From positions 1 to 64,000 of the forward strand of contig JAVYOA010000003.1 in the NCBI GenBank assembly GCA_038734945.1: a stretch of 64,000 nt of DNA. The letters run 5' to 3'. Numbering within the stretch: the first letter of the stretch is position 1; each line of letters starts with the position of its first letter. The position numbers and the translations under genes were made by a program. Under the pieces are notes generated by a model that was given only the letters and a program-made list of their open reading frames with translations, was not told where the DNA came from and made no database searches. This document shows positions 16,455-24,959 of this stretch, piece by piece. Source of the DNA: Fervidicoccaceae archaeon. GTDB taxonomy: Archaea; Thermoproteota; Thermoprotei_A; Sulfolobales; Fervidicoccaceae.

Positions 16455-17402
16455 CTAGTACAGCACTGAGACGATTATCGGCAATGTTATTGTAGCATCG
16501 CCATAAACAACTATGTGCTTTGCCTCCTTCTTCAGCTTTCCCCACGATATTGCCTCTCTTGTTTGTGCTCCGCTCAAGCTGCCATCATACTCAAAAGCAG
16601 TAGTGAGGTAAACAGCATAGTCTAGACCTCCCTTGAACTGATTCCACCAAATGACGTGGTGTTTGCTTATTCCTCCCCCGATAGATAAGGCAAGGCTTTT
16701 TTCATTAACAGATTCAAATACTAGATCCTCGATCAGTTTTTGATCGAGGGAGAAATCAAGCTCCACGTTGTTCAGCCTACCATATATTAGTGCGTTGGTT
16801 CCAAAGCTACCGTCATAAAATCCGGGAACAATTATCGGAACTTTTCTCTCATATGCAGCTCTAAGTATCGAATTGGGATCATCTATCCTCTTGCCAGCAG
16901 AATAAAGAAGCTCATTTGGAGATATTTTTTTCCCCTTGAACTCCTCCATAATTGTTTTTACGAATGATTCGATCACTGGTCCATAGCTCTCCATGGGAAT
17001 GAGAATGTTTCCTAGTCTATGAATTTCTAGGTCACGAAGCATTAAATCATCTAGTTCAAACCTTCCCCTGAAGTAACCAGGTCCAAGGGATTTAGCTATA
17101 TCATGATCTAGTGTTCCAGTCGTAGTTACTATTATATTGAAATGCCCGTCTCTGATCAGCTTCGCTATTAAACCTCTGAGACCAGTTGATACGATGTTTC
17201 CCGTAAAGGAAAGGAATCTCAATTTGCTCTCTCTTACCCCTTCTTTTAGTATCTCTGCTGCCTCTGATAGATGCCCAGCTGTGAAGCCATGAACCATTGA
17301 ATAGTATCTTAGGAGCTCCTTGCAGCTCCTTAGAACTTCGATGCTGGGGGGATCATCGATGATCTTTTCCCTGATCACGTCTTGTCTTCTCATTCTCTTC
17401 AT
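16455..17402 (-). CDS. dys: Deoxyhypusine synthase
   Basis: Transfers the aminobutyl group of spermidine to a lysine of aIF5A, the first step of hypusine formation; NAD-dependent, 315 residues. Signature segments are FLSFTGNIVSTGLRG, TTTGTLDHDIA, VPIIVPGFYDGSFGTNALIYG and GGGISKHHVIWWNQFKGGLDYAVYLTT. It ends with SGAQTREAISWGKL, whose SWGK lysine is the enzyme-intermediate residue in characterised homologues. It overlaps the upstream rtcB by four bases (ATGA), so the two are translationally coupled. The aIF5A gene is not in the window. Confidence 0.95.
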   Translation of the reverse strand: MKRMRRQDVIREKIIDDPPSIEVLRSCKELLRYYSMVHGFTAGHLSEAAEILKEGVRESKLRFLSFTGNIVSTGLRGLIAKLIRDGHFNIIVTTTGTLDHDIAKSLGPGYFRGRFELDDLMLRDLEIHRLGNILIPMESYGPVIESFVKTIMEEFKGKKISPNELLYSAGKRIDDPNSILRAAYERKVPIIVPGFYDGSFGTNALIYGRLNNVELDFSLDQKLIEDLVFESVNEKSLALSIGGGISKHHVIWWNQFKGGLDYAVYLTTAFEYDGSLSGAQTREAISWGKLKKEAKHIVVYGDATITLPIIVSVLY

Positions 17403-18847
17403 CCCTTCGTGACTCCAATTGGCTTAAGTCTTGCGACCAACTTCGCTATTCCAACTCTATCAGCCACTAGCGCAACCCTATCTACATCCTTGTAAGCAGA
17501 GGGTGCTTCCTCTACTAACACTCCCTTTGAGGCCGCTCTAACATATATTCCCTGCCTATTGAGCTCTCTAATGAGCTGGTCTGCTGTGTAGTTTTTAAGA
17601 GCCTTGGATCTGCTCATCCACCTGCCTGCTCCATGGGGAGCTGTGTACCACGTTCTTTCTCCTTTAGCAGATCCCACAAGAACATAGCTGGCTGTACCCA
17701 TTGAACCTGGGATTAACACTACCTGCCCCACGCTTCTATGATCGCTTGGAATCTCTGGATGTCCGGGAGGAAATGCCCTCGTAGCTCCTTTTCTGTGAAC
17801 TACAAGCCCTCTTCGCTTTCCATTCAAAGTATATTCCTCGTATTTTGCTATATTATGGGCTACATCGTAAACTATTTCCAATCCCAGCTTCTCATCATCT
17901 GTAGATAGGACTTTCTTGAAGGATTCCCTGACCCAATGTGTTATTAGCTGTCTGTTTGTCCATGCGTAGTTTGCTGCTGCTGCCATCGCCTTAAAATAGC
18001 TTTGTCCCTCTTCCGAGTTAAAAGGTATGCTTGCCAGCTCTCTGTCGGGAGGATTTATGCCGTATTTTCTCATTGCTCTCTCCATTATCTGGAGGTAGTC
18101 ACTAGCTACTTGGTGTCCAAGGCCTCTGCTCCCTGTATGTATCATGACTGTGACCTGACCCACGTTGGTAATTCCTATCTGCTTTGCTATCTGCTCATCG
18201 TATATTTTATCAACAACCTGGATTTCAAGGAAATGGTTTCCACTACCTAAGCTCCCTAGTTCTGGAGCTCCTCTGCTTTTAGCCCTTTGAGAGACCTTCT
18301 CGGAATCTGCCACTTTCCAGCTACCTCTCTCCTCAATATGTTCAGGATCTTCATTTCTTCCGTATCCCTTCTCTATTGCCCACTCCACGCCTCTATCAAG
18401 AACCTCATCAAGCTGCGCAGTTGAGACTTTGATTTTCCCCTCACTTCCAAGGCCGCTGGGGACATTTACTGAGAGCTCATCCACTAGGTCCTTTATTTTT
18501 CCTTCAATATCCTTTAGTTCGAGCTCGGTCCTCAACAGTCTTACTCCGCAGTTTATATCGTAGCCAACGCCTCCAGGGCTTATGACTCCCCCTTCCTCGA
18601 CGCTCATTCCAGCCACTCCTCCTATTGGGAATCCATATCCCTGGTGACCGTCTGGCATCACATAGCTTGCCCCCACAATTCCATTCAGACATGCCACATT
18701 TGCTGCCTGTTCGAGTGTCATATCCTCTCTCATCTTTGATAGGAGGAAGTCATCTGCAAATACTACTGCGGGAACCTTCATGCACGGCTTTTCTCCCTTC
18801 TCGATTATCCATTCATAGTCGTTCAATTTCCTGACGTTTACAGGCAC
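17399..18847 (-). CDS. rtcB: RNA-splicing ligase RtcB
   Basis: GTP-dependent ligase that joins 2',3'-cyclic-phosphate and 5'-OH ends, in archaea mainly tRNA exons after intron removal; 482 residues. Metal ligands appear in VMPDGHQGYGFPIGG, GYDINCGVR (Cys100), LGSGNHFLEIQ and MIHTGSRGLGHQV. The guanylated histidine lies in TAPHGAGRWMSRSKA near residue 405. No intein interrupts it. GTG 18847 follows GGTGGTG. The archease cofactor is not in the window. The presence of a probable split tRNA at 24308 in the same window makes its ligase role directly relevant. Confidence 0.96.
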   Translation of the reverse strand: MPVNVRKLNDYEWIIEKGEKPCMKVPAVVFADDFLLSKMREDMTLEQAANVACLNGIVGASYVMPDGHQGYGFPIGGVAGMSVEEGGVISPGGVGYDINCGVRLLRTELELKDIEGKIKDLVDELSVNVPSGLGSEGKIKVSTAQLDEVLDRGVEWAIEKGYGRNEDPEHIEERGSWKVADSEKVSQRAKSRGAPELGSLGSGNHFLEIQVVDKIYDEQIAKQIGITNVGQVTVMIHTGSRGLGHQVASDYLQIMERAMRKYGINPPDRELASIPFNSEEGQSYFKAMAAAANYAWTNRQLITHWVRESFKKVLSTDDEKLGLEIVYDVAHNIAKYEEYTLNGKRRGLVVHRKGATRAFPPGHPEIPSDHRSVGQVVLIPGSMGTASYVLVGSAKGERTWYTAPHGAGRWMSRSKALKNYTADQLIRELNRQGIYVRAASKGVLVEEAPSAYKDVDRVALVADRVGIAKLVARLKPIGVTKG

Positions 18848-23564: not shown

Positions 23565-24281
23565 CTATCTCCCTCTCAAAGCTCTTCTGACAGCAGGGTC
23601 CCTTTCCGCTATTTCCTTCAACTTCTGTTCAAAGCTCTCACCTGTGCTCACAAGCTCGCTTAAGTAAACTCCTGTTCTTCCTATTTTATCCCTTCTACTG
23701 AGAACTCTCATTCTTTCCAAGACTGTTTCGAGGCTTATGCCAAGCAGTGATGCCACTTCCCCCTCCCTTCCTAAAATGCTGGACACCAGATAACCGTGCT
23801 CAATCGGCTTGATCAATTCCAATCTCTTATTGACGCCCAGGACTCTTTTCCCTTCTTGAAGCTCCTCAAGAGAAATTGAACCTCCAAACTTATAGAACTC
23901 AACCTCCCTGCTTTGAAGCCTCGCAAGCGGAAAGCTGACAACTATTAAACCCTCTGGATCTAATGTTATGTATCCCTTTGGAGTGCTCATGGGCGTGGCT
24001 TGAACAATTTTTCGCTCGAACTGCTTGAGCCCAAATCTATCTAGAGCTATTTCTATTATATATGATGGAGTCATATTGAGGACAGCTATATCAACATCGC
24101 TCTTTTCGTGAACATCTCCTCTTGCAACACTTCCGTGGAGAAGGGGATCAGCTCCCGCTTTCTTGAGAGCTTCCATAATTTTTGAGGCAATTTTTCTCTT
24201 CTCCGTGAGAAGCTCTATATCCTTCTGTTCATATAGTATGATCCGCTCATCCAGATTTCTGGATATCTTCTCTCTGACCAT
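23565..24281 (-). CDS. Predicted nucleotidyltransferase-domain protein
   Basis: About 238 residues. The polymerase-beta-type nucleotidyltransferase core is clear: LLHGSVARGDVHEKSDVDIAVLN gives the GS motif and the DxD metal site. A later aspartate appears in YITLDPEGLIVVSF. The C-terminal half contains a helix-turn-helix-like stretch (REGEVASLLGISLETVLERMRVLSRRDK). This matches archaeal COG2413-type proteins, whose target is not established. ATG 24281 is chosen because GGGGA is five bases before it; TTG 24293 is the alternative. The 5' tRNA half ends only about 25 bases upstream on the same strand. Confidence 0.8.
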   Translation of the reverse strand: MVREKISRNLDERIILYEQKDIELLTEKRKIASKIMEALKKAGADPLLHGSVARGDVHEKSDVDIAVLNMTPSYIIEIALDRFGLKQFERKIVQATPMSTPKGYITLDPEGLIVVSFPLARLQSREVEFYKFGGSISLEELQEGKRVLGVNKRLELIKPIEHGYLVSSILGREGEVASLLGISLETVLERMRVLSRRDKIGRTGVYLSELVSTGESFEQKLKEIAERDPAVRRALRGR

Positions 24282-24307
24282 CCTGTTCCCCAATTTCTAC
24301 AAAGAGA

Positions 24308-24362
24308 GGGGGGAGGAGGCTGGTCCAAAGCCCCGCATCCTTGGCCGCTAGACTACCCGGCT
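24308..24362 (-). tRNA. 5' half of a split tRNA-Gln(UUG) with GC-rich pairing tail
   Basis: Read on the minus strand: acceptor AGCCGGG (24362-24356), TA at positions 8-9, a D-arm GTCT/GGAT enclosing AGCGGCCAA, G26, anticodon stem CGGGG and loop CTTTGGA with anticodon TTG (24328-24326). The 3' side of the anticodon stem (CCCCG), variable loop, T-arm and CCCGGCT acceptor are all missing. After G37 (24325) comes ACCAGCCTCCTCCCCCC, then T-rich sequence, then a protein start at 24281. A TATA box (centre about 24393) sits 31 bases from the mature end, as for tRNA-Pro in this window. These are the features of trans-spliced split tRNA genes. No matching 3' half is in the window. Confidence 0.7.
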
Positions 24363-24479
24363 GCTGTCATAAAAGTTAGTTAGGCAAGCTTTTAAGTTTT
24401 AGCCCACTCTGAAATGCGGATAACCATCAATATTCACAATGAGATTCTAGGAAATGACTTCATGAACTGAGCAAGGGCT

Positions 24480-24959
24480 CTATTCTTCGCTCTCTTCCTC
24501 TAGCTCCAGTTCCTTTTCCTCTTTAGCTAGCTCCTCCAAGGATGGCTTTCTAGTTGTTTCCTCCAAGAGATCCTCCAGGATTTTTGCATCATCTTCTCTT
24601 ATGTATGGAGCGACTGCTGCAACCCCCCTATCATGATAATTCTCCTCGCTTACTTTCAGACTCTCATAGACTATGAGATACACAGGAAGGGTTGCTATTA
24701 TCGTGTCCTTGCCGGTTCTCTTAAGTCCAAAATCTCTATATCTCGCAATAACTTCTTTATCTGAGCCTACCTTCAGTTCTATTTCTATGGAATCTCTTAG
24801 GATCATGAAGTCGCTAAAAGTTGGTAACCACTCATTCATGAGAAGATCCTTAGCAACGCTCTTAACGACATCCTCCAGTTGACCTTCTAATACTTCCTTC
24901 TTTTTGATCTTACCTGAATGTGCCTGAATTACAATGCAACTCTGCCTTTGAGATGACAT
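24480..24959 (-). CDS. Conserved hypothetical protein, acidic tail (DUF2286-like)
   Basis: A 159-residue soluble protein. The front two thirds form alternating strands and helices: SCIVIQAHSGKIKKKEVLEGQ, LLMNEWLPTFSDFMILRDSIEIELKVG and ATLPVYLIVYESLKV. The last 40 residues are strongly acidic and helical. It resembles a crenarchaeal family of unknown function (possibly DUF2286), but I am not certain of that assignment. ATG 24959 follows GGTGTCCGGG. It appears monocistronic, with the tRNA half downstream on the same strand. Confidence 0.6.
   Translation of the reverse strand: MSSQRQSCIVIQAHSGKIKKKEVLEGQLEDVVKSVAKDLLMNEWLPTFSDFMILRDSIEIELKVGSDKEVIARYRDFGLKRTGKDTIIATLPVYLIVYESLKVSEENYHDRGVAAVAPYIREDDAKILEDLLEETTRKPSLEELAKEEKELELEEESEE

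Follow-up and report, generated by a model that had tools for sequence, protein, structure and literature searches.

Paired gene halves for a split tRNA-Gln(UUG) in a Fervidicoccaceae archaeon, with a 3' half apparently shared with tRNA-Gln(CUG)

We propose that a short element in the DNA of a hot-spring archaeon of the Fervidicoccaceae, at positions 24308-24362 on the minus strand of the 64,000-nucleotide (nt) stretch analysed here (the window, on contig C3), is almost certainly the gene for the 5' half of a split transfer RNA (tRNA) for glutamine, tRNA-Gln(UUG), with its partner 3' half on contig C9 of the same genome. Sequence and computation provide the evidence: the two halves, their pairing, the absence of a complete gene, the promoters, the genes for processing enzymes, and conservation with covariation among relatives. 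Going beyond the preliminary description of this DNA, tRNA-Gln(CUG) is split as well, one 3' half apparently serves both isoacceptors, and the split extends across the family.

The two halves of tRNA-Gln(UUG)

Read directly from 24362 to 24325 on the minus strand, the exon is AGCCGGG TA GTCTAGCGGCCAAGGAT G CGGGG CTTTGG, 38 nt that represent positions 1-37 of tRNA-Gln(UUG), end in CUUUGG before the cut and are free of decay. It runs into a tail, A CCAGCCTCCTCCCCCC (as a whole ACCAGCCTCCTCCCCCC; 24324-24308, minus strand), the first base of which is the third base of a bulge and the remainder of which is predicted, from cofolding and from covariation in relatives, to pair with a leader that precedes the 3' exon on C9 (274274-274251). 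Beyond the tail lie a T-rich stretch (24298-24307, minus strand), possibly the transcription end of the half, and the start of an open reading frame (ORF) at 24281. The preliminary description held that the window contains only a 5' half with a GC-rich tail, and this was borne out: CCCCG, a T-arm and CCCGGCT were looked for downstream and none is present, and tRNA-Pro is the sole tRNA that ARAGORN and Rfam call in the window.

The genome to which the window belongs (G000) is 1.34 Mb, a draft in 9 contigs with a completeness of 99.95%. Searched with the predicted 3' leader, it yielded 35 places at no more than 3 mismatches; at one of them, C9:274257-274272, Rfam gives an overlapping tRNA hit that is weak (C9:274216-274262). 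The 3' half found there (C9:274274-274213, minus strand) reads GGGGGTTGAGGAGGCTGG-GGAG-AT^C-CCCCG-CGAC-CGGGG-TTCGAAT-CCCCG-CCCGGCT-A-CCA and consists of the leader, the 3' strand of the anticodon stem, the variable loop, the T-arm, the acceptor strand (which pairs 7/7 with AGCCGGG of the window 5' half), the discriminator and an encoded CCA. Such a 3' half, with a GGGGGGAGGAGGCTGG-like tail followed by CCCCG, a T-arm and CCCGGCT, had been predicted in the preliminary description, and it occurs once in the genome; other near-matches to the complement of the tail, for example C9:187809 (1 mismatch), have no tRNA 3' arm behind them.

Unconstrained folding of the two RNAs together (RNAcofold) gave a paired anticodon stem, two bulged junctions and an 11-bp outer helix that a 2-nt bulge separates from one more short helix. 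The joint is a canonical bulge-helix-bulge (BHB) motif of the hBHBh' form, in which the stem is CGGGG/CCCCG, the central helix CUUU/GGAG and the two bulges are GGA and AUC; the expected cut sites, GG^A and AU^C, correspond to 37/38, as had been foreseen, and the joined exons (76 nt) are called as tRNA-Gln(ttg) by ARAGORN. Among 5000 shuffled tails, 6 had a duplex energy as good as that of the real tail, though tail and leader are compositionally matched. We regard the tail as not due to chance, because its complement sits upstream of the only tRNA-Gln 3' part of the genome and because shuffles rarely match its energy. What marks a split tRNA is found here: the 5' and 3' parts of one tRNA lie at separate loci (C3:24308-24362 and C9:274213-274274), the joined exons form an identifiable tRNA, tail and leader form a BHB at the joint, and a complete gene was not found in the genome.

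A second split isoacceptor

The preliminary description would have treated the element as a fragment had a complete tRNA-Gln(UUG) gene stood elsewhere and a complementary 3' half been missing, and the genome is otherwise on both counts. None of the 41 places that reach the Rfam tRNA cut-off is tRNA-Gln, and the glutamine-type T-arm and acceptor strand occur once in the genome at no more than 3 mismatches, the sole other match being a different tRNA-like place. Two matches to the 5' pattern are tRNA-Gln, the window half and an exon at C4:17898-17935 with the loop CUCUGG and the anticodon CUG. This CUG 5' half spans C4:17898-17953 and continues into a pairing tail, TCCTCCTCCTCAACCCCC, after which no 3' part follows.

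Together with three weak tRNA-like places (L044-L046) and the two split glutamine tRNAs, the 41 make a tally of 46, as many as have been reported in Staphylothermus marinus and in Thermofilum pendens (PMC3218864). Both glutamine codons are used (46 CAA and 101 CAG in 12 window ORFs), therefore both tRNA-Gln should be needed, and reading them must, to judge from the gene content, require the joining of separate RNAs in the cell. The three weak places (C9:428078, C9:44240 and C2:36269, respectively) fall below the Rfam cut-off and are uncalled by ARAGORN; they have a good T-arm and acceptor end with disturbed 5' parts, and probably represent tRNAs that carry more than one intron or introns at unusual sites. 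L045 contains a GATGAAATGTGACTGG-like sequence and may be a tRNA-Trp with a guide-RNA intron.

A 3' half probably shared by two 5' halves

Both tails can pair with the single leader, the UUG tail through 11 bp directly behind the bulge and the CUG tail through 2 bp that a small internal loop separates from a long uninterrupted helix. In folds held to the BHB and computed with a linker joining the halves, the energies are -46.4 kcal/mol (UUG) and -46.0 kcal/mol (CUG), compared with -48.1 and -46.7 kcal/mol when folded freely. Two 5' halves with synonymous anticodons and one 3' half, compatible with a BHB in both combinations, would allow an alternative assembly of synonymous tRNAs. The most economical reading is that the UUG and CUG 5' halves very probably share this 3' half, since only one glutamine 3' half was found in the genome.

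Three points weigh against the reading as a whole. The central helix of the UUG form holds two GU pairs; for some relatives the BHB form is several kcal/mol, and at most 8.5, less favourable than the minimum-energy fold computed freely; and a draft of 9 contigs leaves some room for a second 3' half in a gap, which touches the sharing and not the split. Were there such a second 3' half, the UUG half would be split without being combined with a shared partner, as might be suspected from two genomes of the same family (G006 and G007) that have two glutamine 3' halves each, and from the small internal loop or bulge that each tail shows in pairing with the leader. We consider this improbable given the completeness of the genome, in which one 3' half was found at no more than 3 mismatches, and given that both tails fit this leader far better than the leaders of other clades. 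Moreover, the one-contig genome G003 likewise has two 5' halves and one 3' half, and a single 3' half recurs in G002 and in G008-G014.

Promoters and processing

Promoters were scored with a matrix built from the promoters of 30 intact tRNAs in this genome, with the motif search confined to 20-36 nt upstream; this replaced an unconstrained search, which had converged on a non-TATA pattern. The TATA-like box of the UUG half, AAAACTTAAAAGC (24388-24400, minus strand), scores 13.2 against an intact-tRNA median of 6.9, outscores every intact tRNA promoter in the matrix and was equalled by 0 of 4000 random 60-mers. The CUG half scores 9.5 and the 3' half 12.1; random sequences scoring as high made up 0% (UUG half), 0.1% (CUG half) and 0% (3' half), and the boxes lie 25, 24 and 22 nt, respectively, from the start of the gene or leader. 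Each half is thus predicted to have its own promoter. The TATA box that had been described earlier is present, and its reported spacing of 31 bases depends on the measuring point, being here 25 nt, equal to the intact-tRNA median of 25.

The genome encodes two EndA paralogs (splicing endonuclease, PF01974), which fit the (alpha-beta)2 type that has been associated with split tRNAs (PMC3218864) and would presumably assemble in that form. RtcB, the tRNA-splicing ligase expected to join the halves, is located in the window (17399-18847, minus strand; PF01139, E=3.6e-175), as had been noted.

By analogy with known split tRNAs, the 5' half would be transcribed from its own promoter as a short RNA made of exon 1-37 and the C-rich tail, and the 3' half (C9:274213-274274, minus strand) would be transcribed separately with a G-rich leader. 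Tail and leader would anneal into the canonical BHB at 37/38, the two-subunit EndA would cut both bulges, and RtcB would join G37 to C38, yielding a 76-nt tRNA-Gln(UUG) with an encoded CCA for use in translation. The CUG 5' half (C4:17898-17953) would use the same 3' half, and both glutamine tRNAs would be made by combination.

Conservation within the Fervidicoccaceae

The UUG half is split in 8/8 family genomes, representing 5 genera, each with at least one glutamine 3' half, and in all eight it stands upstream of the same nucleotidyltransferase gene. In the window this synteny marker, which is no part of the tRNA, is the nucleotidyltransferase-domain ORF directly downstream of the half (23565-24281, minus strand; PF01909, E=7.9e-07); a second marker, a DUF2286 ORF upstream of the half (24480-24959, minus strand; PF10051, E=1.3e-40), is also found in G001, G003, G006 and G007. 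Tail and leader change together, as CCCCCCUACCCUCCC with GGGAGGGUAGGGGGG in G004, CCUCCCCCACCC with GGGUGGGGGAGG in G006, and CCUCUCUCCACCCCC with GGGGGUGGAGAGAGG in G007.

Could the element instead be a pseudogene or integration scar, the remnant of a mobile element or rearrangement in a cell where an intact tRNA-Gln works elsewhere? Integration often takes place at tRNA genes, and the 3' half has a tyrosine-recombinase gene as a neighbour. An intact tRNA-Gln was not found in the genome, however, and an undecayed exon, a strong promoter and a pairing tail whose changes among the family genomes are matched in the 3' leader make a scar very unlikely. That both parts come from one transcript, with a very long intron or as a permuted tRNA, recalls four genomes outside the family (G015, G017, G018 and G019), in which about 185-260 nt separate the halves on the same strand, but here the parts are on C3 and C9 with a promoter each, and they are 46 kb apart in one-contig G003, so that we give this explanation almost no weight. 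A contig misjoined inside an ordinary intron-containing tRNA-Gln is conceivable in a draft genome, yet hardly credible when the same 5' half precedes the same gene in all eight family genomes, one-contig G003 included, and when a misjoin would leave pairing tails and promoters unexplained.

With a split tRNA-Gln as the preferred reading, how might the sharing have arisen? The single 3' half of G000, G001 and G002 lies between an ERCC4 (XPF-like) nuclease gene and the tyrosine-recombinase gene. Homologues of these two genes flank L091, the second 3' half of G007, and the G006 3' half that pairs with CUG (L090) adjoins the nuclease homologue. The UUG-type 3' halves of G004-G007 are elsewhere, directly before another tRNA gene beginning GCCGCCGTAGCTCAGCC (Met in G007). 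Hence the single 3' half of the window's genus appears to correspond in position to the CUG 3' half of relatives and, as this match holds in two other genera, the UUG half appears to have switched partner. The simplest account of the synteny would be that the UUG-specific 3' half was lost and that the UUG tail now pairs with the CUG leader.

Several observations concern the same loci. The UUG-type 3' halves at L086-L089 are each followed on the same strand, after about 10 nt, by a complete tRNA gene that contains an intron, and half and gene may form one transcript. L091 (G007:C33:110432) has a long leader, GGGGTCAGGAGCCGAAATCTTTGTGGGAGATC, and a 5' half for it was not found in G007, a genome that is 91% complete. 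The tyrosine recombinase of G000 (L084:1563-2690, on C9; PF00589) has a C-terminal zinc ribbon and is transcribed away from the adjoining 3' half, and its neighbourhood with the ERCC4 nuclease is kept in G001, G002 and G007. In G004, G005 and G007 the halves are convergent and 3.4-3.9 kb apart. This hints at an origin by a single inversion through the intron, but its simplest version does not account for the intact relative L132, where the corresponding pair of neighbouring genes has a complete tRNA-Gln(CUG) to that same side. Among the loci examined there was no intact relative with tRNA-Met directly behind tRNA-Gln.

Occurrence outside the family

A genome collection of 84,980 species was scanned for glutamine 5' parts not followed by CCC, which excludes intronless genes. 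The scan gave 79 stretches, nearly all from Desulfurococcales, Sulfolobales and other Thermoproteota, with a few chance bacterial matches; most are complete tRNA-Gln genes with a short intron at 37/38. Both glutamine tRNAs are split, with one 3' half, in six related metagenome-assembled genomes (G008-G013) and in Desulfurococcaceae archaeon AG1 (G014), and CUG only is split in G016. The adjacent halves of G015 and G017-G019 are at L138, L141, L157 and L163; in those inspected by eye a TATA-like sequence stands before the second half, as for Aeropyrum pernix tRNA-Asp. G015 also has a complete intronless tRNA-Gln (L190, G015:C18:13442) with the loop CCUUGGC, in which C replaces the nearly universal U33.

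All pairs examined (33/33, in 20 genomes) fit the same BHB register of a 4-bp central helix and 3-nt bulges, and cognate tail-leader duplexes average -37.5 kcal/mol, versus -22.8 kcal/mol with leaders of other clades. An EF-2 tree of 30 genomes places the split state in four separate clades, which implies at least 4 changes, 3 of them forced by well-supported branches. Two of these clades have intron-bearing sisters, both strongly supported: G008-G013 have Zestosphaera/G027, and G015/G018/G019 have Tiamatella. Because this is one gene and intronless genes were excluded from the scan, the tree does not decide between gains and losses or fix the ancestral state. We favour, with moderate confidence, the combined proposition that a split tRNA-Gln is a stable trait of whole lineages, the Fervidicoccaceae and no fewer than three further Desulfurococcales/Sulfolobales clades, that it arose more than once at the intron site 37/38, and that in the window's genus the UUG 5' half lost its own 3' half while its tail came to capture that of tRNA-Gln(CUG). 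If true, this would document a route by which combinatorial tRNA assembly arises late and is not primitive.

Comparison with known systems

Split tRNAs, a split Gln(UUG) in Nanoarchaeum equitans, and shared 3' halves are already known. A literature search without preprints and with few subscription papers turned up no account of tRNA-Gln being split in Thermoproteota, of any split tRNA in Fervidicoccus, of family-wide retention or of a partner switch. By 2011, 18 rearranged archaeal tRNAs in seven species had been listed, mostly as single-species cases (PMC3218864).

Whether split tRNAs are relics or recent products is a debated question. Here an essential tRNA pair is split family-wide and, by the one-gene tree, in at least four clades, and the states found for this one isotype include intron-bearing relatives, halves that are adjacent or distant, and 3' halves that are separate or apparently shared. 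Comparing these states makes it possible to test in what order the events took place, how tails co-evolved and how combinatorial assembly originated. In practical terms, annotation pipelines will probably list these genomes as being without tRNA-Gln.

The split tRNAs of N. equitans include Gln(UUG) and Glu(UUC/CUC) (PMC3218864; PMC4390854) and, as here, have separate half genes, GC-rich pairing tails and a BHB at the joint. That organism is a reduced symbiont and its Gln(UUG) is cut at 32/33, whereas in these free-living Thermoproteota both glutamine isoacceptors are split and the cut is at 37/38; one 3' half common to two 5' halves serves Glu there and probably Gln here. Split tRNA-Asp in Aeropyrum pernix and Thermosphaera aggregans and split tRNA-Lys in Staphylothermus (PMC3218864) are likewise from Thermoproteota, with a cut at 37/38 (Asp), a promoter before each half and a G/C-rich stem of 13-14 bp, and their adjacent halves resemble those of G015 and G017-G019. 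They concern other isotypes, however, have no shared halves and are reported as sporadic and recent, in contrast to a split that is kept family-wide. Caldivirga maquilingensis is likewise a free-living archaeon, with split and tri-split tRNAs (PMC4390854; PMC4033280), in which, as in tRNA-Glu of N. equitans, halves are shared; synonymous tRNAs are obtained by swapping anticodon-bearing pieces onto a constant half, although the isotypes are Gly, Ala and Glu, some are in three pieces, and the organism belongs to a different order.
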